From NCBI GenBank assembly GCA_022539475.1, contig VCMS01000141.1, positions 1-64,000 of the forward strand: a DNA stretch of 64,000 bases, written 5' to 3'. Under the pieces are notes generated by a model. It did no database searches and had not been told where the DNA came from. It saw only the letters and a list, made by a program, of their open reading frames with translations. Source of the stretch: Gracilaria domingensis (lineage: Eukaryota > Rhodophyta > Florideophyceae > Gracilariales > Gracilariaceae). The translations under genes were made by a program, and so were the position numbers. This document shows positions 1 through 46,987 of the stretch, one piece after another; positions within the stretch are counted from its first letter, which is position 1; every line of letters starts with the position of its first letter.

Positions 1-2821
1 TGGGAACGACACAGTTTCGGAGACCATCACAAAAGTAACCCGGGTTCTCCCAGCTTGTCTTCGTTTGTCAAGGTCTCGAAGTCGGTATGTAGTTGCTGTC
101 GCTGCCAAGCCACTCCGTCCCCTAAGATCCTCCCTCTGGTCTCCGGTGCATACATTCTCTAATTCGATTGCTTGTTGTCTCGTAGCCCCAACGCCGCACG
201 TATCTGACCAAGCCGAGCATCTAACAACGCCCTCTTCTTCACAAGCAAATGCCTCTCCGTTCTACTCTCCATGTCGTCCACTATACCTCTTCTCGTCGTC
301 ATGTACCTGCCGCTGTCCGCATTGATTATAGAAATCCATGTAGTTCGATTTTCCGGTACCCTGAGGTCTGGGGCTTCTTAGAATTTTTTCTTAAAGAATT
401 CCAGTAAGTCGACGCTTAAATCCGCATCGATGATATTGCTAGGCCTCACAGCCATCTTCAAAGGGTCTTGTCACAAGCAAGGCCTTCTAGAATACAGAAA
501 CCTCTCTCCCGAAGTTCAGCCTTCTTGTTCTTAAAATAAATATACGCGACGGAATCGTTCTTCACTGCCTCTGCCCATAAGGTCCCATCATCAATCTCCC
601 CCTGTCTTACCCCCTCGTTGAGAAGCTTCTGATCCTGATACGCAGCCTCCAAAACAGAGCATGATGTACTCCTTTAAAGTCCCTCGGCTCTAGCAAATGC
701 CCTCCGTGTTCCTTCCCGAGATGTATCGCATCCATCCACGGATATACAGACTTAATCCCGTCCACTTCAGCAGGCCGCCTGGTAGGAACGGCTTTCAACA
801 ATTTCAACCACGAATTCCTTCCTCGTAGGGTCCTTCGTCTGCTTTCTTCAGCCCCGGGGGTAGACTTTCCGGGCCTGTATCGTCGAAAGGATCCATGTCG
901 TCTGCCCGCGTCTCAACATTCAGCGCTGAATCAGAGTCCTTGTCGCTGATGAAGGAGATTTGATGAGCTTTGAGGAAGCTTCTGACCTCTTTCCCTCCGA
1001 GCTTACGCAGATGATTGATGACGAATGTTTCATCTTGGTGCACTTTGCTTACTTTCGCCTTCTTTTGAGCCCTGGGGTTGTTACCGCTCATCATCTTTCT
1101 TCGTCGACGGCTTCCTTTGGTGCCCCCTCTTAATCCCGCACCACTTGGTTCCACTAAAACAACGTCGTGTCCCATTTTCTGAACATCTTCCCCGGCATTC
1201 TTCTCCTTGATAATTTTAGAACGCGACGCCCGAGTATCGGGTTAAGTGACTTGGGTTGTAGTCGTGGTCGTCTTCCTCCCTCCCGCCGTAGCAGACGGCC
1301 CCACAATCGAATTGAAATCCACCTCGATGGACTTCTTCAGCTTTTCACGAGCATATGTCACCCTTCTCGATATCTTCCGGCCCCAAAGCTTCTTTGTCGC
1401 TGCAATTTCCACGCGTGCGGCTTGTCCCGCAAGATACTCACAAAGGCTGATTTTGTCAAACCTAGTGGCTCCAATTTGCATCTCGCACACTTCCTTCAAA
1501 GAGAGTCTCTTTCTTTTTGATACTTCAACGGCCAGCTCATTTAGGGACCGGCAGCATATAAAAAAATACTTCCGTATGTCTTCAAAGCGGACCTTCAGTT
1601 TGGACTCTCTTCTCCTCGCAAAATATGCTGCCAGAGCGTCCAGGGTGAAATCGATTGTGTCCTCATCGATAGAAGAGAACTCATCACTGGAGATACATGT
1701 AATACCAATCTCATTATACTCCCGACACACACTTTGCAAATGCTTCTGCAGGATGCCTTATATGACACTGGCCTATTATTCCGCATACACTTAAAGCACC
1801 CGCTACAGCAGTCCTTTTCATGTTGTTCAACGCTTTCTTCTCCTCTTCAATCATCGTGGTTATAAAGGATACAATGGAATAAACCTTGTCGGCGAAGTTC
1901 ATAAGTCGGGCCTGCTTCAGTCCATCGTTGAAAGCATTACCCAGGCTCAGAAGCTCCCTCGTGTTCAAGCTTTGTCCATCCTTTCTCCTCCATAAGGAAA
2001 CGGTAGCTCCTTCGCACAGTTTCTTTATTTTTGCATCATCTTTACATAGCTCCTTGATTGCCACAAGACGATGAGCCCCATCTATGAGGATACACGCAAC
2101 GTTCACGCGATCGCCCTCCACCATCTACTTCTCGGACCTATCCGTGACCAAAATAGCAACACTCATCGTTCCAAGGGTTTGAAGAAACCCTTCCCTTCGA
2201 ATCTCCGCCTTCAGAGCTTCAACATGCTCCCGAACTGTCCCTCTCACAGTTGCGTCCGGGATTCTGATTAGGTTGATGTCGACCTTCATGGACTCGTACT
2301 CATAATAGGCCAACTTGAATCTGAGCGTTGCCAGCCTCATATCCACGTCATCCAAAGGTAATTCATCACCTTCGTCGAATAGACCATTGGCGTTTCCAGC
2401 CAAGCTCTCCTTCACCAAGACAACGTCATTATCATCCACTTCATGCACATCCACAACTTCCATCCTAGCTCCGCTGCGACTGCCAGCCATTGTAATCGCT
2501 TTAGCAGTGCTATTTCTTGACGACCCAGACTTCACATTTAGCGCTATTTCCTTCTGTAATGCAGAGACCGCACTCTCTGGAGTTATGGTCAATTGTGCAG
2601 GTCCTACCATTGTACCACCCTGGTGTTGCTTAGATGAGTTTTAGGCACAGGATCAGGTGCTGGAGGCGGTACTTCTTTTCCCACTTTGTTCTTCTGTTGC
2701 TTGCCCGGTATTTTGTTCTGGGCTACCTGAGGTGGCAACCGCTTCCCACTGGGTGTACGCCGAGGTTTTGGTGTTTCCGCCATACGCACTCGTTTCCTTC
2801 CTGTCGTGGACGCTGCATTGG
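1..2821 (-). pseudogene. ParB-fold / 2OG-Fe(II) dioxygenase-like gene, copy 1 (runs off window start)
   Basis: The minus strand reads a lysine/proline-rich basic start (about 2780-2620), then a ParB/sulfiredoxin-type segment. Its hallmark IDGAHRLVAIKEL lies near 2040-2090 and is preceded by a helical stretch. Next come a helical region (about 1740-1240) and a basic, probably nuclear-targeting stretch with SRRRRKMM (about 1100). Last, from 650 to the window edge, is the start of a 2-oxoglutarate dioxygenase-like domain with RERGFCILEGL. ParB folds bind or cut DNA or hydrolyse NTP in bacteria and phages; phage ParB domains are often paired with DNA methyltransferases. The reading frame is interrupted several times, so it is not expressible as it stands. 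It matches 17820-20639 almost base for base in inverted orientation. The ParB call is fairly firm from the DGxHR motif; the dioxygenase call rests mainly on copy 2. A host-gene origin cannot be excluded, but the repeat setting argues for a mobile element. Confidence 0.6.
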
Positions 2822-2896
2822 TTACAGTCTCACGCGTGACAGAAACCCGTATCCGTGGCTCCAAGGAGAATGTCGTCCATACCGGTCGCTCTATTC
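2822..2896 (+). repeat. 75-bp module identical to 26726-26652
   Basis: This stretch is identical, base for base, to the reverse complement of 26652-26726. In this orientation it can read TVSRVTETRIRGSKENVVHT and onward. It sits exactly between the ParB gene start (minus strand) and the methyltransferase-side sequence, which begins at TGTACAAAAT. It looks like a recombination patch between families, because the same flanks in the other copies (17820 and about 14578) lack it. Confidence 0.85.
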
Positions 2897-5090
2897 TGTA
2901 CAAAATTTCCGCTACTACCAAGTGGGAACTGCTGGAAGGCATTCGAAGAAAACTTCGGACACGGCTTCTATCTCGTTTTGATGTTTTCTCCGATGAGTAT
3001 TTGGCTACTCTTCGTACCGCTATTGTCCAGCTGAACCTGAGAGCTTCCCAGCAGGCATCCTGGGTGTAGTGGCTGTCCAGCGCTTACGGCCGAAAGCGCA
3101 CACCGGGCCACTCCGTCAGGACGTCAGGAAGGAAGCAATACGGTCACGGTGAAAATTGAGGATCCGATTACCGTACAAAGAACCATTTCCTCGAGGCCAA
3201 CGGCTAAGGAGGTGGGTGAAACATCCGGTAAAACATCCGGTGCAGACCCGGATCCAGTGGGTGTTCTTTTCATAGACGATACGGATGAGGAAGACGATGG
3301 ATCGCACCCACTTTCTAATGTTCCTGATGGTATTCTTCCACCTCACGAATTTGGCGATGTAAGGAAGACGAAGGCTCAGGTTGTGCTCAAAAAGAACATG
3401 GAGCAACAGTTCTCTATGCCTTGCGTTGCTTATGAAGAGTTAGTGGAGGCTCATGGTACACTGTTCTCTTCCGATAATTTCCTAGAAGGCAATGTTCAAC
3501 TCGGACTCACGGACCCACCTTATGGTATACGTGACAGTTAGCATGATGAGCTTAAGCTCGACGAAGATATGCTTAATACTGCATGAATGATGGCCCCAAT
3601 GCTTTGCCATGGCGGTCATTTTATATTATTCTGTACTATCGAACATTTCGCGGACTGGGAGGAGATTCTACGTGAGCATAAATCGGAGAATGTGGTGGGG
3701 AGGCAAAGTGCTTCGTTCTTAGTTGACCCGACACCGAATAAATTCATTCGCTCTCTTACGCAAATCTTCAAGAACCCCGGAAGGAACACAACACGGTTAT
3801 TCTCTGCAACCGAGTATGCCGTGCACGGAGTCCGGAATGAAAATTCGTACGAGGAGCAGAGGGTGATGGTGAACTACAAAAACTTCAAATACGTTCCCAC
3901 GCAATACCGCGGGCATTACTTCATTATGGATCAGGTTCTGCATCTGTAGGATGGTGAAGGACTCCGTTGGAGGGTAGAAAAGCGTTCCAAAATACAGTCG
4001 GTTCAGGTTTGCTTCGAACAGAAACCGAGGGCACTGCTGAAAGAACTCATTGCCAGGTTCTCAAATCCCGGGGACGTTGTGGTTGATTCCTATAGTGGAA
4101 TACTTTCCGGTGCCTCGGCGTGCATGGACATGGAAGAGTCCCGACGCTTCATTGGATATGAGAGGGATGAGCAGTGCTTCGCTCATGCTGAACAAAATGC
4201 TGCAGTGATCTATGCGAGGAAGGTTTGGCGTAACGAGTTCAACGCAAGAATAGCTGTCAGTTATGAGGTCGTTCAAGCCTCGTATTTAGTACAGACAAAG
4301 TTCCCGGGAGGGAAGCAAAGAACCTCGCCGATATGGACCGCACTGAAAGGATTCCCGCCATACAAATGTTTCCCGTTCCATATCAACTCCTACATCGCAA
4401 CTTTCTGCAGAGAACCGAGTCTCATGGCGCAGCACAAGAAGAAACCGGTGCACGAGTGGCCTCTGAATTTCCAAGGCACATTGGAGACGATGGATGTACA
4501 GAGTTTGCTCGCCGTTGAAGCACCAGGTTTATGGTTGTACAGGGAGAAATCAAATATCAAACACCCCATGAGTGGAGATAGAGTGTTCAGTAGTAGATCG
4601 TTCTCGGAAGGAGAGGTTTTTGGGCACTTCTATGCGATATTGGTATATCATGACATAAGCCGATGCAATGCAACACAGATGAAATACGGAAGCGGAATGC
4701 TCGGTGCCACCGTTTCTCGTTTCAGGAGGTATTGCATGGAAGTGAAGCTGAAAGGGCAGATGTAAAGCACGTTTCCTCACTATGATTCCGAAATCAATAC
4801 TTCGATTGCCTGGGTAGTACCCGCTCCTTTCTATGTAGCAGGCTATATCAATGATGCACGGGGATGGAGACGAAGAGAAAGATTTGACCGATATGGTGCC
4901 TTACCAAGGCTGCCTACCAGACGTTATTATTCGACAGCCCTCCGAGCATCAAACTACCACATTGAGTACACTCCCAAGCTATAGACTACTGTTGGTGACA
5001 GCTATAAAGGATATTCATGAACACGACGAACTTTACGTAGACTATGGACCCAGCTATCCATGGGAGAGGTATTTGTAACTCTCCCATGCT
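2897..5090 (+). pseudogene. Beta-class DNA amino-methyltransferase fused to a SET domain, decayed
   Basis: The first part (2897-3180) matches the minus strand at 14340-14590. An acidic linker follows. Then comes a methyltransferase core: motif IV LTDPPYG near 3510-3530, GGHFILF near 3607-3630, and EQKPRALLKELI followed by FSNPGDVVVDSYSG near 4017-4095, with FIGYERDEQCF near 4130-4180. Motif IV before the SAM-binding motif I is the order of beta-class N6-adenine or N4-cytosine methyltransferases, which are bacterial and phage families. Downstream, a SET-like lysine methyltransferase domain is visible: GDRVFSSRSFSEGEVFGHFY near 4575-4630, then TAIKDIHEHDELYVDYG near 5000-5050, which fits the SET C-terminal GEEL...DYG block. 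Several stops and frame changes interrupt it. The inferred ancestral role is methylating both DNA and histones around the element. It is head-to-head with the ParB gene. Confidence 0.7.
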
Positions 5091-6851
5091 TTATAATTTG
5101 ACCTAGTACAAACTGTTGTATTGTATTTCCCTAGAAGAAATAAATAACTACAATACTGCCGCTATTGGCGTACTAATGTTATCTACTAGTGGCGTACAAA
5201 ATTTGCTGCAAATTTAATACAAAACTGCTAAGGGTGGTTGCAATTGACGTACAAGTGATACACTTGTCTCGATTTGTGCTACATTTGTTGGCCAGGAGTC
5301 TGAGTCGGGTACGCCACATGTCAAAATTTCAAATTTAGCACACCCACAAGATGGTTACAAGTAGCAAACAACATTTGCGCTAGAAGCATGCCAAACTTAG
5401 TCGACGCCAAAACTTAAGTAGAACAATTCTTGTAGTTATAGATCGAAATCTTCGCTTTATTAGTCTACATTCACATTATGTCCAGAATCACACCGCCTAC
5501 TCTACTTCTGAGACCCGGCCTTCAGAGCCGTCACATTTGCTTGAAGAAGGTCTTTGTCCGATTTTGGGGGGGATGACCATCAACCAATTTACTCCCACGC
5601 CCTGCTTGGCGCGTAGTGCAGAAATGAAGTCTTTAATCCCGGTACCTGCATCGCAATCAAGCCATCGTTGGCTTGTAAGGTCCTCCACATTCATCATCGA
5701 ACTGAATTGTAATATAATGCTTTGCTGGAACCTCCTCCATGATTCAACTCGTTTTGATCGCTAGCAATGACTGGCGGCAGGCGACAGTGACGAAATGGAG
5801 CAGAAAGGGCCTCCTGCGCTACCATTAGAGCTTGAAGAATAGCATGAGCTCGTATTTCCATGTATAGCTATGAATATTAGCGAAAGAGGTAAGGATGATC
5901 CTGACAGCGCGATGGTGGTTTGAGTTAGCCATCTTGAGTGCTTTCGTTACTCAACATTGCGAAATGTTGAGTACACAGGCCCACACCTCTTCATTAGACG
6001 TGACGGCTTGAACTCGGTTTTTGCGCAGAGCTGTAGCCCAGATCAGAAGAAACACGTCTCCTCGCCAAAAATTAACGGCGAAGATCGATATTCAGATGAC
6101 AAGTACGCGAGCTCTTATTCCTGACCAGAGCTCCCAGAAGCAAACCTTATAAGCCACTGAAGTTTGAACGCATGTCGGGGGTCTACCTGCGACAGAAACA
6201 CCAGTACAAACGAGAGAAACTTACGAGACAAGAACAGTGCGACCAAAGGAAGAGCTCTGTAAAGGTTGCGGGATAGAAGGGGGGCGCGCACTGTGGCGCT
6301 CGTTGTAAACCATTGATTGAAAACTTCTTCTTCGGTAAAAGATGAAAATCACTGCCCATAAAGCTTTGCTGTGAATCTGTTCAACGAACGGCAGAAATCT
6401 TGGTGCCGACGCGCCTCAAAGTCTGTTGACGGCCAAAACAATCGGTCCACGAGCATTCGTCATTTTCAATCGACGCCAGAAATCACCGTGTTCTCTTGCA
6501 GCCTTCGTTCCATATTGGAAGAGCACAGGCAACCCATTCGAATATCCTGTTTCATCTTCGCCCCCTGTTGTTATCGCACATCGCATCTGAGTTGACTCGC
6601 TCCATGGTTTCCAACATGTTTCAGCGCTAGACCAGAGTGATACACGCTTGGAAAGAAAATCTGCGCGAACGCCAGGCTTTTGGTTCATTTTGCGGGTAGA
6701 AACTCTCCTCGAAAGTCAGTAAGCTTGGACATATTTTGGATGAATGCTAGGCGAGTAGAAGTCACCATTATCTCACTCCAGAAGCTTCCGCTTTCCTACT
6801 TCATAATCCGAACATACTCCGTTTCTTTTCACACGATTCTGAAGCCCAATC
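5091..6851. other. Non-coding interval, AT-rich left part
   Basis: No supportable gene is seen. The first 330 bases are AT-rich, with repeated ATTTG/CAAAT words and a short inverted repeat ACAAGTG-ATA-CACTTGT at 5251-5267, which would suit the subterminal part of a DNA transposon. The remaining sequence has only short open frames with no recognisable domain. Confidence 0.5.
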
Positions 6852-7724
6852 ATGGCTCCACATAAATCCAGCAAGGGGGACAACCGAGAAAGGAAGGGAT
6901 CCCAAACAATCCCGCGATATGGTATTGGCGTAGCTAAGCGCAAAACCCCTCCGCCTGCTGCGACCCGAAGAAGTACTCGACGACGAGCTCCCCGTGTCGG
7001 GCTTACTGGAAAGAAGTCTGGTTTAAAGTCAGCACTCCGGGCTACGAAGGCAAAACCGAAATCGAAGCTGGGTGTTAATACGACCCCAACGGAAGTGACA
7101 GAGAGCGAAGTAGTGTTACCACATCACAGCTCAGTGGGCGGGCTTGTTACACGACACATGGCTGCGAAGGATGTGCCAAGAATCATCGATGATGCGAATG
7201 TTGAAAGGAATGTTGCAGAGAGAGGTACGAGAGCGAAAGGAAAACGGGCTAGAAATTTGAGAAACAATGTCATCGAAGAAGAGTTGGACAGACATGAAAG
7301 AGCAATCTCACCTGGTAGAACGAGGCGCATTACAAACGATTCCATTCAACCTCTACGTGGTAGGGACGGAGAAGAAGCCGATGATATACAGCCCGCTGTA
7401 CGTGCGCTCGCAACATCGCGAAGGGAGATAAAAAATCGGAACGATTCCCTTCATGCCGATCGTGCTAATGACGAGGAAAAACTCGATAATATACAGTCCT
7501 CTGTACGTGCGCCTGCACCATCGAGGAAAAGTTTCGGGAAAAGAAACGACTCCATTCATCCCGAACGTCGTACGAACGAGGAAGAAGTCGACGAGATACA
7601 GCCTGCTCCTCGTACGTTCGTACCATCGCAGAATAGGCTCAACCAAATGAGAAGGAAGGGTTCGACCTCGACTTCCTTTGGCGAGATGCGTACGGAACGG
7701 AGAGAGATGAGTCAGAATTACTAA
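6852..7724 (+). CDS. Basic protein with three 35-residue repeats, function unknown
   Basis: An intact 290-residue frame starts at an ATG in a purine-rich context. The first 75 residues are very rich in Arg, Lys and Pro (RRSTRRRAPR), as in nuclear or DNA-binding proteins. Residues 162-266 are three consecutive 35-residue repeats, each starting NDSI/L(Q/H) and holding a (D/E)xIQ(P/S) block. I do not recognise the family. It is the first of several plus-strand remnants (up to 9486) that converge on a Plavaka-type transposase gene, so it may be the accessory (TnpA-like) protein of that transposon. It could equally be a separate low-complexity gene. It is the longest unbroken non-retroelement frame of the region. 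Confidence 0.5.
   Translation: MAPHKSSKGDNRERKGSQTIPRYGIGVAKRKTPPPAATRRSTRRRAPRVGLTGKKSGLKSALRATKAKPKSKLGVNTTPTEVTESEVVLPHHSSVGGLVTRHMAAKDVPRIIDDANVERNVAERGTRAKGKRARNLRNNVIEEELDRHERAISPGRTRRITNDSIQPLRGRDGEEADDIQPAVRALATSRREIKNRNDSLHADRANDEEKLDNIQSSVRAPAPSRKSFGKRNDSIHPERRTNEEEVDEIQPAPRTFVPSQNRLNQMRRKGSTSTSFGEMRTERREMSQNY
7335..7649 (+). repeat. Three tandem 105-bp coding repeats
   Basis: Three in-frame 105-bp units encode NDSIQPLRGRDGEEAD..., NDSLHADRANDEEKLD... and NDSIHPERRTNEEEVD.... The units differ at many bases but keep length and reading phase, so they have diverged under coding constraint rather than being a fresh tandem duplication. Confidence 0.85.
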
Positions 7725-7854
7725 GAGAGACATGGAACGAAAGGGGTCGTAACGTGGCAGGTCCCCGGAAAATTAAACGTAGCTTCCATCTCGTGCTCAT
7801 GCTGGTGTAGACGAAGGAGGTGAAGAAGATGAAAGCCTAGCGGCACGGTACGAG

Positions 7855-9486
7855 GTGTTGGACAAGATTGGAGACTTGAAAGCGGATCTCTTTCGAGTAG
7901 CCGAGGATAATCAAAGTCTGCGCGTACGAATAGCACAGAAACGCATGACGGAACTAGAGCTAAATGTCGAGGACCAAGATGTTCTAGTAAAATCACTTCG
8001 AGAGGCACTGAAGCGAGAAGCAACACGGATGGAGCGTGATTCTCACAGGGGAAGGAAAATATACGAGATGGATGTGAACGACGCTTATGTAGCGGTAGCG
8101 AAGACAGTATACGAGTCCATACTGCTATACGCGAAATACGAGACAAGTAAATTGTGCTTCGAGATGAGTTCACCGGTGAGAAACTGGGGAAATCGAAGTA
8201 AGACACTCGGACGTGAGACTGAGTACAGTGTCCTGGTCGTTGATGGGAAATAGATTGTTCCACGCTGTCAAATGGAGGTCGCGATGGAGATGAGAGCCTA
8301 TACTTAATCGATTCGTTGTACGGGTCATAACTTGGTGATGCAAATCGTGGAGACGGAGGTAATGAAACCTCGTTGGTAATCCATCCGGGAGATGAAGATG
8401 GAAGAGGAATGCATCAGACATCTGACAAGAGACATTTTCTTACGGAAGAGGTTGAGGCAGGCCTTGGGCAATGCGCTGGGGGTTCGAACGCCATGCGAAG
8501 GAGAAGTTGTTGATGGGGCTAGGGTATGGCATATTGGTGAAGACACCATCTCATGAGAGGGAGAGGAGCGTATACCTAAAACAAGCGAAGGAACTACGGG
8601 AGAAGCTTCTGCCGCTTGATGCCAAAGGGTGTGAGATTCTCTCAACATGGAGAACATCCGAAAGAGAGGACATATCATGCTCCGGGTTCAAAATGCGTGG
8701 CGAAGAGAACAAGCTCCAAGACTTGCTGTTAAGAAACGTTCTAAGCCTACAGGTCTTACAGGAGATTCTGGGTTACGATGTAAACTAAAAAGACTCGAGA
8801 AATGCGGCTGACATGGACCCAGTGGATTGCACAATAGTGCAGTTGGCGCGTCTAGACGCTTGGATCGCGTCAGTTTTTCGAGCTACAGAGTTTGAAAGAG
8901 GGCGGGGGGGGGGGTAAAAGGCAGGTGTTGTTCTCCAACTTCTTCCGAAAGTATGTTACACAGAGGTTGGAAAGTGTACTGATGGCTGTGCAAATGAAAA
9001 TGGAGCAGAACTTTGGAACGGAGTTCAGGAACGACTCAATGGCTCAAGATCCACCCTATGGAAATGATGACCATGTGGGAACTGTGGCATAGTAAATGCC
9101 GTCTACGAAGAAGCTATATCTAGCTGATCGAGAAGATGTACGCATCGAAGAGATTATGGAACATCTTTGAGCCGTATTGGATTGCTATATTGGTTATTGT
9201 GACCCATCGGATCGAGTATACTCCCCTATAAGAGCAATCGATGAAATCCGAGATAATAATGTGATCGATTGTAGTCCGAATGTCTGGGAACAAAGTAGGG
9301 AACGAGACGGGGAAGGCGTGGACGATGAGCACGAGATGGAAGACGAGGAGGAGAATATCTAAAGTACATGAACAGTTTATGTTACGAATGTTACGTAGTA
9401 CGAGTATGATGAATGTGAACTCGAAGGTTACGATAAAATCTGTTAATGTAGAAACGATGGAATTGCCAGTAAAGGGAAGGCAATAA
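7855..9486 (+). pseudogene. Helical / coiled-coil gene remnants, unrecognised
   Basis: Several plus-strand open stretches in different frames have a coding-like composition. Near 7855-8253 is a predicted coiled coil (KIGDLKADLFRVAEDNQSL and LVKSLREALKREATRMERD) followed by YVAVAKTVYESILLYAKYE. Near 8471-8788 is a helical Lys/Glu-rich stretch ending LSLQVLQEILGYDVN. Near 8892-9486 are shorter acidic pieces. They probably continue the gene or gene group begun at 6852 and are now broken by frame changes. A run of nine or more G at about 8905 is a likely slippage site. No family is recognised. Convergence on the transposase suggests the accessory gene of the same transposon, as inference only. 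Confidence 0.4.
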
Positions 9487-9784
9487 TGGTCGGACAGAGT
9501 AGTTTTGGCAAACAACGTGTATGGAGCCTTTGATTGAGGAGAACGGGATACGCCTGAACCAAAAAGACACCGTAGCAGAACTAGGTTTCATCCTTGACGT
9601 ACTTGGATGCACGGTGTGATCATGCTCGTCGTCTGTAGCCCAAAAAGAGTGATATACAGTTCAGAGTTTCATCAAAGTTATCCAAAGACTTTGTAACTTC
9701 GAAGAAACGAACGAAAGCGAGCTCCGATTCAGAGTTGTCAAAAGTCTTGTCCCTGACGCAAAGCAATGCAAATACTTTGCATAC

Positions 9785-12680
9785 CTAAGCTGTGGAAAAC
9801 GTACAGTTGGGAGAGGGTGTTCCGTGCACGAGAACCGTGGAGAACTTAGGCAACTTGGAAGGTCCGAAGGAGGTCGTAGCGAAGATTCGTTCACATAATT
9901 GTACATCGGGCTTTCTCAATCTTATGCATCGAAGATCCCGATCGTAATCATCCAGAGAGGGGCAAAAGCCTCTAAGAACGTATGCGGAATTAAGGACAGG
10001 GAGTTTGATGTTCTGATGGTTATTCAGCTGTTGAGTGGTTTCTACACAAAAAGTGCGGAAAGAAGTGAAGGCGTCGCGAGATATTAGGTTGATGAACTGC
10101 AGTGGGTTTGTCGAGAAAAGTTCTGCCAGAGCCGAAAAAGATACATGTGGATGCCATCGTAGGTACTTGTCAGCTGTGCTAATGTCAAAGAGTGAGAAGG
10201 AGTTACCGTGGCAAACCATTGCCTGAAAGCGGTTGATGGAAGGGCTGCAAGAGTTGGAGAAGACAGAGAAGTGACTTCTGAACGAAAGGGATTGCAAATA
10301 GTCCTGCGACTCTTGAATGGCGTTCACCGTTTCCTTATGAGCTGTAGTTCGCCTTCGAGAAGTTCGACGATAGTAGTTCTTAAAGAGAAGATGAGCATGT
10401 TCATACACGCCCGCATCGTCGAAGTGCAGGCCTCCGTATCGCCGTATGTCTGGAATGATGTGGTCAAGGAGGTAGAATTTAAGAGTAAGAAAGTTGGAAG
10501 CTTGGTACGGGCCGAGAATGGAGACTGTGTGAAACTTGAAGTTCTTGGTCATAGTTTCCACTGCATTTATCCGATGCTCCGTCCATTCCGGATCGGTATT
10601 GTAGCGTAGGACGTTATTGATGAGGTTAGGATGTGAACACGGTGGTAATAGGGGCGGAGGATTCCTCACCACAACAGCAGTCGAAGAACGCGCCAATGAA
10701 AGGGAACACCATATCAAGGGAACGGCACTCCTTGGCTTCCAACATACCCCTGATGCCGTCTGTCGTGAAGAAACCGTTGAGAGACTTTTCTTTTTTGGAT
10801 GTGGAGAAGTCAATTTAAAGTCCGGATGCTGGATAAGAGCGCTCAATGTCTGCGAGAATGACTTAGGCGTGGCTTAGAATAGAAGTTAGAACGGTCTTGA
10901 AAAACCTCGAGTTTCCCTGAGACCGAACAGAAGTTTGAAGCGAATCGGACTTGAGGCGGTCAATTGAAGAGAGTTTGATAACTTTAGAGATTCCGAGATG
11001 AAAGTTATGAAGGGGCTCGAAGGAGAAGATTTAGCAAGGAGTGAGCAGTTCGGAGACATTGACCATAGGGAATGATTCGAGAAAGGACTTGTAAGAGGAT
11101 AAGGAGGTGGTTTGGAGTAGTGCAACAGCTTCATTTCTCAGGGTCCTTGCCACTCAAAGTCTGCTGAAGAGCAGAGCCTGCTCAGTGTCGGCAAGTAGAC
11201 CCTGGTGTTTCTTTCTCGTTGCTGAAGTGTGTGACGGTTCGCTCATTGAGAATGGGTTGATAGATGTTGAGTTGCGAACGAGGGATAAGTCCTCTCTGAC
11301 AGGGCCTGTTTGGTTTTGTGCCATGTAGGACAGCGAGAATTTTCTTTGCTTCGGGAATGTCAGCGCTATAGCTAGCGATGATGAGATGACACTGACGAAG
11401 GACTCCCTTGGCGTCTCTGAAGGGGAAGCCTTTTATGCATATGTCGTACAGAGGTTTGAGGATAGTTTCCAAGGACTTCTGAATGAGCTCCATGCGCACA
11501 ACGCGAGTTATGTTCGACGAAAACGGGCCAATTTCCAAAGAGTGGGTGTCGGTGGAGGAGGAATCGGAGGAGCAGGATGTGAAGGAAGTGGGAATGTAGC
11601 CGACGAGAGTGTGGTGGTGTGTGATACATTTTCTGCGGAAAGAGTCCTTGAATTTGAGAAACGTAATATGGAGGTGGCATGATGTGACAGAGGAGCTTTT
11701 TAGCGTGGTGGAGGACTTATCGGAGTGAAGTTGAAGCATGCCGACGAAAGAGTCTATACCACTAGTGGTGAGATTATGCCAGATTACTCCTGGGTTTGGG
11801 GAATGTGCGATGTGCTTTTGGAGAGCGGGAACGCCGTCATGTTCGAGTTTGGAGGCCATGAGATGCGCAAATGCGTCGGTTACAGTGCGGGAGGCGTGGA
11901 GAATTGGGTGAAAGAAGGCGTTCTCATGAGATGCTAGGCGAAGTTGTTGTTGAAGGACTTGAATGGTGTCCTTCACATAGAGGGTGGCAGAGAACTGACT
12001 GTTGTTGTCATGAATGGTGGTGGAGGTGACGCCAATAGAGCTCACGGTCTGTTCAAAGATTTTGGAGTGTAGTTTGAGACACTCAGAAGCGGGGGTGGTG
12101 AAGGTTTCGAGAAGAGATTGGGGAAAGTTGGACTGCCTGAGAATGTTGATAAGCTCGTCTACGAAGCGCTTTCCGAGTTTCGTAGTGATGGAGGAAATGT
12201 ATGTGACAAGATTGTGAACGATATCACTTGGAGCGGACGGGAAGAGGGCATGACCGGAACCTACAGAGAGGGATTGAAAATTGAATGGGGATTGTGGTGT
12301 GGCTAGATGTGCTGCGTCGGAAGAACGTATGGAGAGAGCAAGCTGCTGTTCTTCGTACGATTCGTCAGTAGCGAGTGCTACATTATCGGAGGGGCGGTTG
12401 GAGGAAGAAGAGAGATATGGTTTGGAACTACTGAGTCGGCAACGTTTCGTTCGGGGGGGAAGAGGGAACCGCGGGGGGCTGCAGGAGTCAGAAAAGGGTT
12501 TGGGTCATGCCGGTGTCTGCAACGTCTCTGATGTTGCGCGAGGAAGGCGACAGAGTCTGTGTGAAAGGCGCAGCGTGGGAAACAAGAGATGTACATGATG
12601 CAGTACGGCTGGGAGGTGGAGGAGGGGGTTGGTTGGAACGTTGGATGTGAGGAGCGGAAGTCTATGGTGCAGTGTTGCAA
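9785..12680 (-). pseudogene. Plavaka-type (CACTA superfamily) transposase, decayed
   Basis: The minus strand starts with a Cys/His cluster (CFPRCAFHTDSVAFLAQH, about 12600-12540), fitting the N-terminal zinc finger of Plavaka transposases. The catalytic part follows at about 12045-11180: a DSFVGMLQLHSDKSSTTL block, FKDSFRRKCITHHHTLVGYI, KPLYDICIKGFPFRD, and CHLIIASYSADIPEAKKIL, the family's ASYVADxPE block. Near 11055 another frame carries FSFEPLHNFHLGISKVIK, the family's D/P-LHQ-L-GxFK block. The C-terminal frame (about 10846-9785) contains KFYLLDHIIPDIRRYG and YEHAHLLFKNYYRRTSRR, matching the KFH...HI..DI.R.G...EAH...K..YR.T ending. At least three frame changes separate these blocks, one near a G-run at about 12455, so it is a dead copy. 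Function in life: a DDE-type cut-and-paste transposase. Confidence 0.8.
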
Positions 12681-14333
12681 CTTGGAGGAACTTGTTGACG
12701 TACCGTGTGGGGGATAATATAGGGAGAGTCAAATCGGCGCCATGCACGTGATGGTTTACGTACATCACGATATGACATGAGTACGTCGAGGAGGGAAGGA
12801 ATGGTGAAAAACTGAAAAGTAACATTCCTAAATTTTGGAGACCATACTTTGCGGCAGCGTAAGCTCTACACTAGACGTAGCTAGTGCTGCACTGGAGCAC
12901 TCAGGAAACTGGCATGGCTCGGGCCTGAAGAGTGCGACGTGGGCTCTGATCATGGCCCCTCTCTCCAACACATTATCTTCCAGATCACGCAAGTTCTATA
13001 GGGGTACGTCAAATTCGTAACGGTCTCGACTCTTACTGCCGTCTTATTAGTTTCTGACCTTGTTCAATGCGACCGATGTACGAGTAACAAGCGAACGACT
13101 ATTATGGAGATCATGCGAGTGACATACTGGTACGGTTCACTCTCTAACTACGGTTTTTATGGGATCTAGTTCTTCCTGACCCCGTTTGCCGCGAGGGATT
13201 TACAGAGAGCGAGCGAAGGTGCTAGGAACGCATGTGCGCCCTCGTAAGGTACGTCGTCAATTACGCTCTAAGAGCGACTCGAGTGAGAAATGTACTACAA
13301 TTCTCACTGGAGTCGCGTTTAGAACTTAATTAGCGAGGTTCTAACGACTAACTGCTGCGGTTTAGTTCTGGCTTACTGAATTTTGGGTCGTCCATTGAAT
13401 TGGGTTGGAAACTGTGGCACAGGGCGGCCTTGAGGGTAGATGGCGGAGCGGTAGACCGTGAATGTGTCGAATTATCAGGACTGGAAGACATGGAGAGGTA
13501 TGTAACGTATTGAAAAGAAGTTCGTGTGTGTTATCTGATTGCTAACTGTGTGTCTCATTACTGCTTCTTGCAGGGTCTTGATTCTTGAATAGGGACGTGA
13601 AGGTGTGTTTGGATACGAGAACTGGAGGATTTGAAAAGGTAGAGAGATATCGCATTCAAGGGTTGCGTGTGCGCTATGGGTACTAACTGTTTTCAATGTG
13701 TGTTTGTGTGCGGTGCCGCGATGAAACTGTATGGATGGTGATTGGGACTGAATGGGATGGAGAGGTAAGAGGTTCAGGTATCGAAGAAACGCTTCCTGGT
13801 TGTTTTGAGTATGGCTACTAACTTCGTGTCCGTTTACGGCTTTCTGTGATGGTGCTATCGAGGAATGTGGACTGTGCGAAGGAAGATGTTATATGCAACA
13901 GCGGATGAAGAAATTCTGAAGATGAGGTCTGGGTTTGATCATGATGTTTTGAGTAACTGCGGTCGCGGTGGTGGCGCTCGGGGGGTACTGCCGCAAGTGA
14001 ATATTCCAGCCTTAGTATTCTCGGAGGCTTGCTGCGTTCGATCCAGACTGGTCCTTTCCCTGGGCTTCCTATGTGGTCCGTTGGCAGACCACCCGAATGG
14101 GCCCACTCACCTAGAACACTTGCAAAAGTAAAGAACTGCAAGTACGGTTCTGCCATCTTTCATACTTGCTAGTTCTTGATGTCTAGTATCAGAAACATAG
14201 CTTACTTTGGCATACCTCAGAATCATTCATTAGTGGTTGTTTCTCTAGTTCTTTTTCCAAATCGAAACTACAGAAAGTGCAATGTAACAAATGAAAAACT
14301 AGCATTTAGAAACTAAGATTTTTGGACTGCTAA
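12681..14333. other. Non-coding interval with inverted repeats
   Basis: This is upstream of the Plavaka-type gene. At 12869-12900 the words CACTAG, CTAGTG, AGTGC and GCACT occur in both orientations within 32 bases, as in CACTA subterminal repeats. A strong hairpin lies at 13267-13323. Other than short, unrecognised open frames, nothing coding is supportable. Confidence 0.5.
13267..13323. repeat. Imperfect hairpin, 23-bp arms
   Basis: The inner arms 13274-13289 and 13301-13316 (GCGACTCGAGTGAGAA against TTCTCACTGGAGTCGC) pair with one mismatch around an 11-base loop. The pairing extends outward for about seven more bases with two mismatches. It could be a folded miniature element or a transcribed stem-loop. 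Confidence 0.7.
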
Positions 14334-15640
14334 CTAGCAAAACGAGAACACAATCGATCCTCTATATTCACCGTGAGCGTGTTTCTTCCTTCCTGACGTC
14401 CTGAAAAAGTGGCACAGAATGTCTCCCAGGAAGGTCTCAGGTTCAGCTGGACATTAGCGGTACGATGAGTAGCCAAATACTCATCGGAGAAAGCATCAAA
14501 ACGAGATGGAAACCGTGTCCGAAGTTTCCTTCGAATGCCTTCCAGCAGTTTCCACTTGGTAGTAGCGGACATTTTGTACAGGAATAAGTTCAAGACAACC
14601 TTTTTCAAATCGGACAGGAACGTTTTTGACAAATCCCTTAGTTTGGAAGCGATATCATCCGAAAGGGTGTGAACCCAAGGCACTGTAGCGTTGATTTCTG
14701 TGGTTGGCTTCACTTCGATCCCGAGTGTTTTGAACACCGATGCTGGACTGTATTCGGAAGAACGGCACTCAATTGGGCCGAAAGAAAGCGTCGCTTTCTT
14801 CATGGCAAGATACGGTAACAGCATTTGTTCTGCGTCACGAAATCCAAGACTGGAAGCAAAGGAATCCCATCATAGACATACTATTTGCACAGCATAACCC
14901 ATCCGCCTTATGAGAGCTTGGTTTGACATGAAGAAACCATCGACAAACAGCACCTGTCTCCGAGAACCAGTTGCAGTCTTCGCCTTCTTCGCAACTGAGA
15001 TTCGCCTCTCCATAGTGATACGCTTCACTATAGATACACAGAGCAACTGCTGAAAACGAGTAGCAGGCTCAATCCGGAAGGTAGTTTTCTTCGTCTGCTT
15101 GGATCCCGGACCATGCCCTTTGAATAAGTCATTCCATAACTCACGCTCCATAAAAGAATTCCCGCCATCCACATTCTTATCCAAACTCCATTCGAAAAGA
15201 TCCCTCAGCCGACGATTCTGACTCTAGTCATCCACATCAATGATACGGACATACTTGTAGACGCGAGTTATGAACCTAACATCGGTACATATCTTCACCA
15301 GCTCCTGCAGCGTGTAGTAAGTTTGTGTACGTGCTCTTCGTAACATACGTGAAAACTTCCCGTGCAAAAAACCACACTGGCACGGTTTGCGAAGCGTACT
15401 CAACGAGAACCGTGTATCCAATCTGAAGAGGGAAACCAATGCCGCCTCGAGACGCCGCAAACGAGTCTTTCAGCTCGAGAAGTATGCTGAAAAAACGGAG
15501 GAACCGCGTCGCCATAATATCCTTCTCACCGGAGCTAGACTCCGTAGATGCCACGGAAGATGCTGTAGTCGACATTTCTCTGCTGTTAGGACCACGGGGG
15601 GTCTGTTTCCGCCGGGTGCCATGTAACTCTCGCAAGAACT
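14334..15640 (-). pseudogene. Second copy of the methyltransferase-gene 5' segment, unrecognised domain
   Basis: The end of this minus-strand region (14590-14340) is clearly homologous to 2887-3170 on the plus strand, sharing SATTKWxLLEGIRRKLRTR and FSDEYLATxRTA. The part before it (15640-14600) has no counterpart in copy 1. It encodes helical, coding-like stretches, for example FGPIECRSSEYSPASVFKTL and MERELWNDLFKGHGPGSKQT, which I cannot assign to a family. It presumably represents the real N-terminal portion of the methyltransferase-SET protein, lost in copy 1 where the 75-bp patch replaces it. A few stops and frame changes break it. Homology stops at GAGGATCGATT, next to a 19-bp motif also found near 24345. 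Confidence 0.5.
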
Positions 15641-15838
15641 CGCGAAAGCGAAATGGAAAGTGGCGATAAAACTCGCTGGAAAAGTTCTCGAAAGCGTAGT
15701 AGACGGTGGTGATGAAACGTTATTCTAAATTCGTATTTGAGCGGGTGTTAGTCGTACGCGGGGGCGGTGGGAACAGGTTTACAAGAGCATGTGTAGAAGA
15801 CAGACTTGCGTAAAATCACGTCTAGTAGTGATTATCGT

Positions 15839-16955
15839 GGTGGCCGGATGCGACGTGTTCAGACCGCGATCTGGAGACTGTGGAATCGGGTACCGGGCTA
15901 CGTGTAGAAGGGGTTGCAGCGCGCATGGGGCAGATGGGATATGCTCCTATACGACTCAGAATCGCCGTTCTCTGCCACAGACCGGCTCCACCCACATCAT
16001 TTTCTCCCATAGCCGCCATCATAGGGCTGCATACAAATCTTCTGTACGTTCTCCACCTCCACTCTCGCCGATTGCGCTCCAACTCCTACGCGCACCCAAA
16101 AAGCGGTTGCATTTCGCAGGCTCAAGGCTTCCAGACGCCATCGTCATCGCAACCTTCGACGACCGCATCCGTCGTAATCAACAACAAGAGCGTCTGGAAC
16201 AACATGCGGCTTAGCTCTGCCCACTCCCCGTACTGGTGATAGCAATTTAGTAGCGAGCATGACGTTTTACAGCTCTCACATTCCTTTTCGCCAGAACGTC
16301 CGCCGTGCCTTTTACGTAATAAGGACGACCGTCGCAAGACGCAGACACCGGCTATAGCGCTGCCTTGACGTCTGCAGCCACCGTGGCCGCAGCTGCTTAT
16401 CTCGGTATACCTAATGACTGCGCTACACATCCATCGCCGGGCAGGATGTCTGTCTCAGACGCTCAGTTTTATACGGCCTAGCGCGTGTTGCGTGCATTGC
16501 ACTTTCCGTCTCACACCGTGTTGATGATGCAGCGTCAACACACTTCTTAGCACCCACACCAAGAGCAAAACACGTGTACGGTCGCCGCCCGGCACTGAAC
16601 GTGATGAAGGTCCTTCTCAGAGAGCTCCCACGACAAATATCTATGATCATAATAGCCGTATGATTTCCATTGGTGCTGCCATAACTACCCTCATTCTCGA
16701 AGAGCTCTGCTCTTCAGCATTCAATCTGAACTTCGATAAAACCAAATCCGCGCGTAATCGTTTCTTGTCTCTGTGTAGATACGTATAAAGTGCGATGTTA
16801 AACGATAAATGTTGTTAAACGACAAATGTGCTCTGCGTAGCTCTACTCAGCTCTACGTTGTACCCTACAACATCCTTTTCCACCCCCGTACGGTGGCGTG
16901 GTGGCCGGATGCGTAGTGTTCAGACCGCGATCTGAACACGTCACATCCGTCCACC
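15839..16955. mobile_element. Possible small TIR element with a head-to-head terminal palindrome
   Basis: The word starting GGTGGCCGGATGCG (15839-15873, plus orientation) recurs at 16900-16934 with two changes. It recurs again inverted at 16929-16955, giving a near-palindrome at 16900-16955. The outermost copies are inverted and about 1.1 kb apart, as in a non-autonomous DNA transposon. The interior has no recognisable gene. I cannot identify a clear target-site duplication, so the boundaries are provisional. Confidence 0.4.
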
Positions 16956-17271
16956 CAAGAAGGGTACCAGGCGGAATCTGTGAAGGTTAATCATGCTGTC
17001 TGGTATGCATCTAAGCCTTCTAAACCGTCTCTAACTTCCTGCACCACTCTTTCAAATTGACGCGAATGTTCACGTGCTCATTTCCGCGAGCTGCACTGCA
17101 AATCTGCGAAACGAACGGGTGCGACACTTTAACCGACATCGAAGCCTGTACCGTGTTCAAACCGAGCGGGTGCGCCGTTTGCTGACCTGATCAGAGCATT
17201 ATAGGATTAGCGCTTTGTTCTGCATTCACCTGTATAGGTGTTTGACGAAGCTAAATTCAACAGGCTATACA

Positions 17272-17721
17272 ATGGAGCCAAGATGGTTGGGAAACTGGCA
17301 GATGAGGCGCTCCCGAAAGTCGCGGAAAGTTCGGAACCCCATGGCCCCGCATCTTCGAAGTGCGAAGAATAAAAAAGAAGGAGGGAAGAAGAGTAGCGCG
17401 GAAGCACAGAATCCGGAGAGAAGTATGAGCTCTAACTCGGGGAATGCGAAGCCCGAATCGGAGAACAAAGTGACGCTTCTTTTCGCGGGGAATGGAACGA
17501 AAAAGCTCCCAATTGGCACGGCTGAAGTGGTGGCCATCGAGTCTGCAGGCGACGGCAAAGAGTATCGAAGAGAAATGCATGGTCACACACTGAAAGGGAA
17601 GCCGGGACAGAATATAGTCGGTATATGGCGAGCTGATGTATCCAACGAGCTCCATACACCGTACCCGTATTCACTTAAGTGCGCTGGTGAAGACTCTAAT
17701 CCAAAGTTCGTTGCGAACTGA
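17272..17721 (+). CDS. Unrecognised basic protein upstream of ParB-like copy 2
   Basis: An open frame from an ATG gives about 149 residues. The first third is Arg/Lys/Ser-rich (RRSRKSRKVRN). The remainder is more ordered (VTLLFAGNGTKKLPIGTAEV, EMHGHTLKGKPGQNIVGIWR). No family is recognised. It ends 98 bases before the homology with copy 1 begins and points the same way as the ParB-like gene, so it may be its 5' portion or a short partner gene. Copy 1 has no equivalent because its sequence switches to the 75-bp patch. Confidence 0.35.
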   Translation: MEPRWLGNWQMRRSRKSRKVRNPMAPHLRSAKNKKEGGKKSSAEAQNPERSMSSNSGNAKPESENKVTLLFAGNGTKKLPIGTAEVVAIESAGDGKEYRREMHGHTLKGKPGQNIVGIWRADVSNELHTPYPYSLKCAGEDSNPKFVAN

Positions 17722-17819
17722 AACAGATGGGTTTCTATGCCTAGGACTTGAACTTCATGGTTTCGGGTTAGACCGTTGAGAACACCACGCCGCAGGTGCC
17801 CAGTAAGAAAACACGGGAT

Positions 17820-20800
17820 ACCAATGCAGCGTCCAAGACAGGAGGGGAACGAGTGCGTATGGCGGAAACACCGAAACCCCGGCGTACACCGAGTGGGAAG
17901 CGGTTGCCACCTCAGGTAGCCCAGAACAAAACACCGGGCAAGCAACAGAAGAACAAAGGGGGAAAAGAAGTACCGCCTCCAGCGCCTGATCCTGTGCTTA
18001 AAACTCATCTAAGCAACACCAGGGTGGTACAATGGTAGGAACTGCACAATTGACCACAACTCCAGAGAGTGCGGTCTCTGCGTTACGGAAGGAAATAGCG
18101 CTAAATGTGGAGTCTGGGTCGTCAAGAAATAGCACTGCTGAAGCGATTGCAATGGCTCGGAGTCGCAGTGGAACTAGGATGGAAGTTGTGGATGTGCATG
18201 AAGTGGATGATAATGACGTTGTCTTGGTGAAGGAGAGCTTGGCTGGAGACGCCAATGGTCTATTCGACGAAGGTGATGAATTACCTTCGGATGACGTGGA
18301 TATGAGGCTGGCAACGCTCAGATTCAAGTTGGCCTATTATGAGTACGAGTCCATGAAGATCGACATCAACCTAATCAGAATCGCGGACGCAACTGTGAGA
18401 GGGACAGTTCGGGAGCATGTTGAAGCTCTGAAGGCGGAGATTCGAAGGGAAGGGTTTCTTCAAACCCTTGGAACGATGAGTGTTGCTATTTTGGTCACGG
18501 ATAGGTCCAAGAAGTAGATGGTGGAGGGCGATCGCGTGAACGTTGCGTGTATCCTCATAGATGGGGCTCATCGTCTTGAGGCAATCAAGGAGCTATGTAA
18601 AGATGATGCAAAAATAAAGAAACTGTGCGAAGGAGCTACCGTTTCCTTATGGAGGAGAAAGGATGGACAAAGCTTGAACACGAGGGAGCTTCTGAGCCTG
18701 GGTAATGCTTTCAACGATAGACTGAAGCAGGCCCGACTTATGAACTTCGCCGTCAAGGTTTATTCCATTGTATCCTTTACAACCACGATGATTGAAGAGG
18801 AGAAGAAAGCGTTGAACAACATGAAAAGGACTGCTGTAGCGGGTGCTTTAAGTGTATGCGGAATAATAGGCCAGTGTCATATAAGGCATTCTGCTGAAGC
18901 ATTTGCAAAGTGTGTGTTGGGAGTATAATGAGATTGGTATTACATGTACCTCCAGTGATGAGTTCTTTTCTATCAATGAGGACACAACCGATTTCACCCT
19001 GGACGCTCTCGCAGCATATTTTGCGAGGCGACGAGAGTCCAAACTGAAGGGCCGCTTTGAAGACATACGGAAGTATTTCTTTATATGCTGCCGGTCCCTA
19101 AATGAGCTGGCCGTTGAAGTATCAAAAAAAAGAGACTCTCTTTGAAGGAAGTGTGCGAGATGCAAATTGAAGCCACTAGGTTTGACAAAATCAGCCTTTG
19201 TGAGTATCTTGCGCGACAAGCCGCACGCGTGGAAATTGCAGCGACAAAGAAGCTTTGGGGCCGGAAGATATCGAGAAGGGTGACATATGCTCGTGAAAAG
19301 CTGAAGAAGTCCATCGAGGTGGATTTCAATTCGACTGTGGGGCCGTCTGCTACGATGGGAGGCGGGAAGACGCCCACGCTTACAACCCAAGCCACTAAAC
19401 CCGATACTCGGGGGTCGCGTTCTAAACTTTTCAAGGAGAAGAATGCCGGGGAAGATTTTCAGAAAATGGGACACGACGTTGTTTTAGTGGAACCAAGTGG
19501 TGCGGGATTGAGCAGGAGCACCACAAAAAGCCGTCGACGAAGGAAGATGATGAGCGATAACAACCCCAGGGCTCAAAAGAAAGCGAAAGTAAGCGAAATG
19601 CCCCAAGATGAAACATTCGTCATCAATCATCTGCGTAAGATCGGAGGGAAAGAGGTCAGAAGCTTCCTCAAACCTCCTCAAACCTCCTTTATCAGCGATA
19701 AGCACTCTGATTCAGCGCCGAATGTTGAGACGCCGGCAGACGACACGCATCCTTTCGACGACACAGGCCCGGAAAGTCTACCCCCGGGGCTGAAGAAAGC
19801 AGACGAAGGACCCTACGAGGAAGGAATTCGTGGTTGAAATTGTTGAAAGCCGTTCCTATCAAGCGGCCTGCTGGAGTGGACGGGATTAAGTCTGTATATC
19901 CGTGGATGGATGCGGTAAATCTCGGGAAGGAGCACCGAGAGCATTTGCTCGAGCCAAGGCACTTTAAAGGAGTACACATGCTGTGTTTTGGGAGGCTGCG
20001 TATCAGGGTCAGAAGCTTCTCAACGAGGGGGTAGGAGAGGGGGAGGTTGATGATGGGACCTTATGAGCAGAGGCAGTGAAGAACGATTCCGTCGCGTATA
20101 TTTATTTTGAGAACAAGAAGGCTGAACTTCGGGAGAGAGGTTTCTGTATTCTAGAAGGCCTTGCTTGTGACAACGATCTTTTGAAGATGGCTGTAAGCCC
20201 CAGCAATATCATCGATGGGGATTTAAGCGTCGACTTACTGGAATTCTTTAAGAAAAAATTCTAAGAAGCCCCAGACCTCAGGGTACCGGAAAATCGAACT
20301 ACATGGATTTCTATAATCAATGCGGACAGCGGCAGGTACATGACGACGAGAAGAGGTATAGTGGACGACATGGAGAGTAGAACGGAGAGGCATTTGCTTG
20401 TGAAGAAGAGGGCGTTGTTAGATGCTCGGCTTGGTCAGATACGTGCGGCGTTGGGGCTACGAGACAACAAGCAATCGAATTAGAGAATGTATGCACCGGA
20501 GACCAGAGGGAGGATCTTAGGGGACGGAGTGGCTTGGCAGCGACAGCAACTACATACCGACTTCGAGACCTTGACAAACGAAGACAAGCTGGAGAACCCG
20601 GGTTACTTTGTGATGGTCTCCGGAACTGTGTCGTTCCCACTTTGGATATGTGAAGGATACCACAGTCAATTTGCTGTAACATCAAAAGCATTTGAAGGGT
20701 TGGCACGAGGAATGGTTGTGAGAAAGCTCTTTATCCCACCTATGTCTGTGTTTATTGGGAGAGGGGATGTATTTCATGCCGTGCGGGCACTAAAGATGGC

Positions 20801-21099
20801 AGATTTCCGGAAAACCCACTGTTCGCTACCATATGTATACGGTACCAAAGAAGTACAGTCAGAAGGATGCAGTTCATCTGAATCACCATTTTCGACCGAC
20901 TTTTGTGGAAGAAGACGACCTCATAGGAATGAAGGACAACGCAGGTGGTCCTGCGGTGGACATGGAATTGGTTGAAGATGGGAAGTACGAGGACGAAGAT
21001 GATGCGTTGATGGTCGAGGAAGCGAACAGCGACGAAGAAGACGAGAAATGTGAAGCGCAGGGGATAAAAGAAGTGACAGAGGATGGGTATGAGAACTGA
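17820..21099 (+). pseudogene. ParB-fold / 2OG-Fe(II) dioxygenase-like gene, copy 2
   Basis: This matches 1-2822 in inverted orientation and extends 460 bases further than copy 1 can show. Order: basic Lys/Pro-rich start (17846-18030); helical lead and ParB-type block with LIDGAHRLEAIKEL (18550-18600); helical middle region (18900-19340); basic stretch SRRRRKMM (about 19530-19560). A dioxygenase-like domain follows (20090-20930), with RERGFCILEGL, LHTDFE (HxD metal pair), a strand VMVSGTVSFPLWI, IPPMSVFIGRGDVFHA (distal His), and RYHMYTVPKK in an adjacent frame (2OG-binding Arg position). The tail is acidic. 2OG dioxygenases of this kind hydroxylate or demethylate DNA or protein. The frame is interrupted several times, and most interruptions are the same in copy 1. 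The ParB and dioxygenase calls are inference from motifs. Confidence 0.65.
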
Positions 21100-31600: not shown

Positions 31601-31660
31601 CTACAATCAGATGGAAGTAGCCACAAGATGCTTCGGGGTATAAGAGGTCAATCGTCATAA
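28623..31660 (+). pseudogene. Tnp2-type (CACTA superfamily) transposase, decayed
   Basis: N-terminal helical sequence (28623-29375) precedes the family's core. The core has FSTDGIQAFRKQTDTVWPIA and PDDLQSFLGPLLEELKQLEK (29700-29910), then a CSGDLPA block (about 29980). A Cys cluster follows (RGLYCKRPCRCCDIEGVW, then RHYYFPSF, 30020-30110), matching the Tnp2 C..C...G...HxYYP knuckle. Then come FDLHNIVLYASFPIDIMPLF (30275-30330), a long helical region, and YSQYWMERFIGRTFGRMNAR (30800-30860), the family's fixed W..ER.G.....N block. The C-terminal part has NWNIACHMV and VYYGRILLFLEF (31230-31320), the DNA-binding or accessory end seen in these proteins. From 29627 to 31660 it is one frame with three stops; the N-terminal part lies in another frame. 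In life it would be a DDE transposase acting on CACTA-type ends. Confidence 0.8.
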
Positions 31661-44571: not shown

Positions 44572-44586
44572 CGTCGCACACGGACA

Positions 44587-46961: not shown

Positions 46962-46987
46962 CGAGCCGACGGAGTCGGTGTCTCAGC

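Follow-up and report, generated by a model that had tools for sequence, protein, structure and literature searches.

Why does a red alga carry, head to head on opposite strands, one gene with a ParB-type motif and a dioxygenase-like tail and another with DNA methyltransferase (MTase) motifs and a SET-type end? The arrangement lies at the start of a 64,000-nucleotide stretch of Gracilaria domingensis DNA, referred to as the window (GenBank assembly GCA_022539475.1, contig VCMS01000141.1, positions 1–64,000). A first-pass annotation attributed it to a eukaryotic mobile lineage that had captured a phage-type ParB–MTase pair and added histone-methylating and oxidizing domains. From its neighbours and ends, the gene pair is assigned here to a DNA transposon of the Plavaka group (EnSpm/CACTA type), which measures about 21 kb in one subfamily. 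We judge it slightly probable, on balance, that the pair forms a self-directed DNA- and histone-marking module that sets the element's own DNA and chromatin state.

Gene pair and genome searches

The stop-to-stop frames of the window reproduce the motifs as first described. The ParB-type and dioxygenase-like parts are on the minus strand, with IDGAHRL in the frame 1714–2124; the MTase and SET parts are on the plus strand, with LTDPPYG in the frame ending at 3541, FSNPGDVVVD in the frame 3950–4765 and the SET-type end at 5078. Nine pieces of the window were searched against Pfam. PF01555 (N6_N4_Mtase) on 3950–4765 (E = 3.6e-10) was the single match over the cut-off, and no ParB, 2-oxoglutarate-dependent oxygenase (2OG) or SET match was obtained in any of the nine pieces.

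Own-genome searches were performed on the 77.9-Mb assembly of 680 contigs, in which the window corresponds to the initial 64 kb of contig C141. Three stretches of the window, 1714–3540, 3950–4762 (compared as protein) and 9685–14005, recur reversed on contig C164 with 99.98–100% identity, by which C141 and C164 are taken to overlap or to be duplicates. Because some contigs appear duplicated in this way, the locus counts given below overstate the number of independent copies. Contig C680 carries ten of the 12 phycobilisome matches of the genome and looks like plastid DNA, which marks the host as a red alga.

Linkage to a Plavaka transposase

The Plavaka transposase profile PF18759 matches the minus strand of the window at 11182–12504 (E = 2.6e-13, 50.3 bits against a cut-off of 26.3). 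This query has 99 matches in its own genome, the long ones with open frames of up to 1110 amino acids. The MTase–SET piece of the window has 142 matches including itself, 103 at 44–100% identity and 39 at 35–37%. The 103 near matches were merged into 96 loci (family I); 31 short pieces of one 71-row list and one fragment each from the 59-row and 99-row lists were dropped from the table of these loci. Among the matches listed, 39 of the 96 loci have a ParB/2OG match divergent upstream (<9 kb) and 51 have a Plavaka match convergent downstream (<9 kb, mostly 5.2–5.6 kb), with both neighbours present at 15 or more. The element thus reads as a ParB/2OG gene and an MTase–SET gene diverging from each other, followed by a Plavaka gene that converges on the latter. 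Two matches within 9 kb break this pattern: on C25 a further ParB/2OG match is found 6.2 kb downstream, and on C18 Plavaka is matched twice. At distances above 9 kb some loci are arranged differently, for example on C106.

None of the 39 more distant loci is linked to the family-I neighbour lists in the same way. They coincide with a second family of the same layout (family II), with 128 ParB and 134 SET matches in the genome, in which the gene order recurs. After four tiny fragments had been left out, 130 family-II SET loci were used; among the matches listed, 48 have ParB divergent upstream (2.3–5.5 kb) and 13 have Plavaka convergent downstream (3.5–4.5 kb). Both neighbours are found at seven loci or more, and one locus (L072) is off-pattern. 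An apparent fusion of ParB, middle region, MTase and SET in L072 was dropped, as a run of N separates the parts and the locus is off-pattern. The divergent pair is therefore linked in other copies of both families, a point on which the first-pass annotation had staked its proposal. Between the families the ParB regions are 30% identical over 203 residues and the SET regions 38% identical over 278 residues; the Plavaka matches of both together number 123, all over the PF18759 cut-off. Twenty of the 128 family-II ParB matches (including the query) are 100% identical and tie for the top score, pointing to a recent amplification.

Ends of the element

Terminal inverted repeats of at least 18 bp bracket the genes. 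The window holds two copies of the element, A and B, which share a terminal 18-mer (14332–14349 at the end of copy A and 24343–24360 at the end of copy B). The terminal-repeat pattern was found in the window at 14332 and 24343, against 0.01 expected, and the 18-mer (with at most one mismatch) was found at 94 places in the genome versus 0 for the reversed control. Distances to the ends were analysed for 50 of the 96 family-I loci. Measured from the MTase piece, the Plavaka-side end is 8.2–9.6 kb away in 14 of the 17 distances listed and the ParB-side end 9.2–13.2 kb away in ten of 13; the length of about 21 kb follows from the sum of the two. On C106, two terminal repeats are separated by 21,021 bp, although the gene order is off-pattern there and the pair may not delimit one element. 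Pairs 7.2–8.8 kb apart on C37, C128 and C184 probably represent shorter non-autonomous relatives.

The mobile lineage proposed at the outset can accordingly be named as this Plavaka element with its terminal repeats, which carries ParB, beta-class MTase, SET and very likely 2OG domains.

MTase–SET protein

In better-preserved copies the MTase and SET domains are part of one protein and both exceed the Pfam cut-offs (PF01555, E = 2.3e-14 in L003 and 1.3e-14 in L027; PF00856, E = 7.5e-5 and 2e-6, respectively). PF00856 is also over its cut-off in L072 (2.6e-8) and in the outside protein P0001 (4.1e-5). DPPY precedes the motif I glycine motif, and DPPY and DPYSGTF or DLYSGTF are present in L003 and L027; by its PF01555 match and this motif order the enzyme is classified as a beta-class N6/N4 DNA methyltransferase. 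Its solved relatives include DpnA and MboIIA, both named adenine-specific, and CcrM, which NCBIfam labels adenine-specific. The DPPY motif and these nearest solved relatives suggest N6-adenine as the predicted target. The usual SET motif is NHS; the element copies have YINDA or YINDS. In the public protein set, three proteins (P0001, P0002 and P0003) match the MTase–SET protein at 26–28% identity. Both domains are over the Pfam cut-offs in P0001; P0002 and P0003 have an MTase match without a SET match.

CcrM is a cell-cycle enzyme, and its place among the relatives of the MTase, together with the conservation of the transposase next to the gene pair, would fit a Dam-like timing device. Adenine marks in terminal or promoter sequences would become hemimethylated after replication and so gate the transposase, with SET and 2OG secondary. 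We regard this as unlikely, since it leaves the conservation of SET and 2OG unexplained.

Phage matches to the MTase–SET protein (the best 25 of 46) cover 26–28% of the query and fall in the methyltransferase part only. At least 28 IMG/VR loci match, via the methyltransferase region. Three among the 28 listed, the viral contigs L102, L107 and L109, have one frame matching both methyltransferase and phage ParB profiles, the latter weakly (E = 0.0004–0.001); the element's own ParB and 2OG profiles gave no match among these 28 loci. The proposed capture of a phage-type ParB–MTase pair is not supported as such: ParB and MTase here are in two separate divergent genes, and the ParB scores of the viral single frames are weak. 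The same three frames are what speaks for a protective role, in which modification would shield excised or incoming element DNA from host nucleases or a restriction-like defence, much as it does in phages. What a SET domain would do on naked DNA is not evident, and we know of no restriction-like defence of this kind in red algae; we rate protection as improbable.

ParB–2OG protein

The ParB-like region leads into the oxygenase-like terminal domain in a single open frame in L071 and in two frames with one stop between them in L061; open frames of 1326–1327 amino acids were found among the relatives. The ParB region gave no Pfam ParB match and no PDB sequence match, and its PHROG ParB match reached only E = 0.012. 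Profile–profile comparison was performed with hhalign, using five element sequences from both families and seven phage ParB proteins. The element ParB profile matched with a probability of 95.1% (E = 3.5e-8) over 127 columns spanning ParB and the following helix–turn–helix (HTH). Against the same phage set, the null controls gave 0.0% (reversed profile), 0.3% (2OG profile) and 0.1% (methyltransferase profile). The choice of phage proteins was not independent: the seed had been picked as a weak tblastn hit (E = 0.3) of the same ParB region and the other six are its relatives. The seed is annotated as ParB-like and has a Pfam ParB HTH domain, with PF02195 not among its Pfam matches. A low-confidence AlphaFold model [predicted local distance difference test (pLDDT) 47.4, predicted template-modelling score 0.47] gave no significant fold match, and no ParB entry was among the matches listed. 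The predicted ParB identity is thus supported by profile–profile comparison and not by Pfam. Residues 250–1170 of the protein had no homologue among 7991 scored.

The 2OG domain is very likely, as a motif-level call that uses only the conserved HxD…H…R pattern. HxD and the distal H are invariant in four aligned sequences, which represent both families and window copy B, and an R follows the distal H by 9–11 residues in L071, L061 and L073; window copy B does not cover that site. Among the outside relatives, P0004 (63% identity) has R and P0006 (40%) has N instead of the first H of HxD; P0005 (37%) has HxD and is without the distal part. A tblastn search with the 2OG part gave no plasmid hit and one chance-level phage hit, and no annotated oxygenase was matched. 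For TET/JBP, which were compared via Pfam only, there was likewise no match of any 2OG family. The AlphaFold model of the 2OG piece is of very low confidence (pLDDT 32).

Of the profile matches expected by the first-pass annotation, MTase and SET were thus confirmed over the Pfam cut-offs in better-preserved copies and ParB by hhalign, whereas no Pfam ParB and no 2OG match was found.

The absence of the HxD histidine in P0004 and P0006, the lack of a SET match in P0002 and P0003 and the departure of the SET motif from NHS would all be expected if the domains were structural relics that bind DNA or cofactor, with catalysis lost, and serve as targeting or scaffold parts for the transposase. We consider relics a poor prospect, since the best-preserved copies retain DPPY, the motif I glycines, HxD and DYG, under strong purifying selection.

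Selection on the gene pair

The ratio of nonsynonymous to synonymous substitution rates (dN/dS) was calculated by NG86 on stop-free frames. Between subfamilies, dN/dS for MTase–SET was 0.05–0.10 (13 pairs, with saturated dS of 2.3–4.6; a 14th pair was not computable), and the reading frame with 2OG gave 0.146 (one pair, dS 1.8). Within subfamilies the values were 0.57–0.96 (22 pairs). The gene pair evolved under purifying selection: the low values between subfamilies indicate that it was kept while the elements were active, after which single copies decayed.

The high values within subfamilies and the many broken copies are the points in favour of the view that the genes do nothing for the element and are passengers or neighbours by chance. 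The same order, orientation and similar spacing recur in two families as diverged as those described above, and dN/dS between subfamilies is low; this view is very improbable. Chance neighbourhood was rejected on the linkage in both families and the selection result.

Proposed function

The self-marking reading fits best because two DNA- or histone-type enzymes and a ParB-type DNA-binding part are conserved beside a transposase. The ParB/HTH part would bind putative sites in the element and bring the oxygenase there, and the MTase–SET protein would methylate DNA (predicted at N6-adenine) and nucleosomes. The 2OG enzyme may remove or further oxidize marks at the same sites. Together the two proteins would determine the element's DNA and chromatin state, either keeping the transposase expressible or timing transposition, despite host silencing. 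The activities and substrates of the proteins and the direction of their effect (activation, timing or protection) are inferences. In a fuller version, a cut-and-paste transposon has a complete two-protein chromatin system, with a writer of adenine and histone methylation and a divergent ParB-guided oxidative eraser, which selection has maintained in two old families. This would be a new form of transposon-encoded epigenetic control; we put it forward tentatively and think it doubtful.

Several results weigh against the self-marking reading and the element on which it is built. Among the matches listed, all three genes occur together at only 15 of the 96 and seven of the 130 loci, although contigs end inside elements. 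No consistent target-site duplication was found in five paired ends. PF02195 (ParB_N) has zero matches in the whole genome, and the 2OG part has no match to a 2OG family in searches of Pfam, PHROG and PDB sequences. The first metal-ligand histidine is missing from P0004 and P0006, two of the three outside relatives, and the 2OG domain could have another catalytic role or none.

If the self-marking reading is correct, DNA adenine methylation and histone marks in an alga are produced by a selfish element's own enzymes. N6-adenine methylation in red algae could then come from such elements, and modified bases are predicted to concentrate on them in long-read base calling. The idea that transposons evade silencing by writing marks could be tested directly on these natural repeats.

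Copies A and B in the window

Copies A and B are both broken. The ParB–2OG remnant of copy A (1–2822, minus strand; about 1326 codons in open relatives) is cut by the contig start and is 96% identical in DNA to copy B (17820–20639) and 88.6–89% to L061. It includes a ParB-like domain with a ParB-type HTH and one in-frame stop (1816–2280, limits estimated from the hhalign alignment) and the broken N-terminal portion of the 2OG-like part (1–565), placed by DNA alignment to L061 and the aligned domain limits and cut before the second metal ligand. The MTase–SET remnant (2894–5078, plus strand) has stops and frame changes; positions 2470–2640 and 2636–4664 of L062 align to 2894–3064 and 3103–5129, respectively. 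Motif IV, DPPY, sits just before 3541, ahead of the C-terminal (motif I) half of the MTase at 3983–4192 (residues 12–81 of 3950–4765 in the PF01555 match). The SET remnant is estimated at 4540–5078 from the alignment of the window piece to relatives, with PF00856 found in L003, L027 and L072. Missing from copy A is the region, about 3.3 kb long in C231, in which the two genes start.

A third gene of copy A with a basic N-terminus (6843–8253, plus strand, two open pieces) gave no Pfam match over the cut-off. The same protein start lies downstream of MTase–SET in L003 (1–639), and L027 (3–857) has a likely counterpart. The Plavaka transposase of copy A (9785–12504, minus strand) is in two open pieces, with PF18759 at about 11269–11745; the piece 9785–10873 has no Pfam match and was assigned by continuity. 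Pattern search placed the Plavaka-side terminal inverted repeat of copy A at 14332–14352 and the ParB-side repeat of copy B at 24343–24361, both on the plus strand.

Copy B comprises the 5′ part of MTase–SET with its upstream region (14357–16934, minus strand; L062 113–2696 aligns to 16934–14357 with 86% identity) and, by alignment to relatives, a ParB–2OG gene with stops and frame changes (17191–20975, plus strand), within which ParB is at 18296–18928 and the 2OG core, with an HTDF motif, at 20484–20783. Copy B breaks off at 14357, only a few bases from where copy A ends, as if copy A had inserted into it.

Other elements in the window

A Gypsy-type retrotransposon at 36088–47857 has 855-bp long terminal repeats (LTRs) that are 97.7% identical, reverse transcriptase, integrase and a chromodomain near the cut-off (24.0 versus 25.1 bits). 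The stretch 51902–52757 is 83% identical to its LTR in reverse orientation. A second Gypsy-type element (54565–64000) is young, as its 1404-bp LTRs are 99.6% identical. Open frames at 49257–51065 (minus strand) weakly match the N-terminal tyrosine-recombinase profile PF02899 (E = 0.0023, under the cut-off) and are perhaps a Crypton or DIRS-like element. A series of open frames at 28812–31660 (plus strand), three pieces of which were searched without a Pfam match above the cut-off, may encode another transposase-type protein.

Comparison with known systems

Giant EnSpm elements of red algae are reportedly Plavaka. A literature search over titles and the starts of abstracts yielded no description of an element with all four domains, and neither red algae nor ParB occurs in the text of PMC12695648.

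Individual components have precedents outside algae. Retrotransposons with DNMT or Dam-like genes, for which self-methylation was proposed (excerpts of PMC5890265), share a transposon-borne DNA methyltransferase with the Plavaka element; they differ as retroelements with cytosine DNMT or Dam-like enzymes in another architecture. Fungal DNA transposons with TET/JBP dioxygenases (excerpts of PMC12730594, with 32 mentions of Plavaka) similarly have a 2OG-superfamily oxygenase as an accessory gene of a DNA transposon. ParB does not occur in that text, and the 2OG part of the algal element gave no Pfam match to any 2OG family. The same source cites Phytophthora elements of the HarbingerS and MuDR superfamilies, likewise DNA transposons that carry a SET gene; these belong to other superfamilies, and the passage has no SET–DNA methyltransferase fusion.

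The closest parallels are algal. Sola1-1_Ec32, a giant Sola-1 transposon of Ectocarpus, encodes a ParB-like and N4/N6 DNA methyltransferase protein (excerpts of PMC12477816). Like the Plavaka element, it is an algal giant DNA transposon with ParB and MTase accessory domains opposite in strand to the transposase. Unlike it, Sola1-1_Ec32 has a Sola-1 transposase and both domains in one protein, and its section in the excerpts mentions no SET or 2OG. That study adds, with reference to Iyer 2011 and Petroll 2025, that transposons of green and red algae are known to encode similar proteins. ParB–MTase proteins in algal transposons, and giant red-algal EnSpm elements with accessory genes, are thus already published (PMC12477816), and Petroll et al. 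2025 may already describe the full set. The giant red-algal EnSpm elements, for which the excerpts of PMC12477816 cite Petroll et al. 2025 (Current Biology), resemble the Plavaka element in having several accessory genes and ParB–MTase-like proteins.

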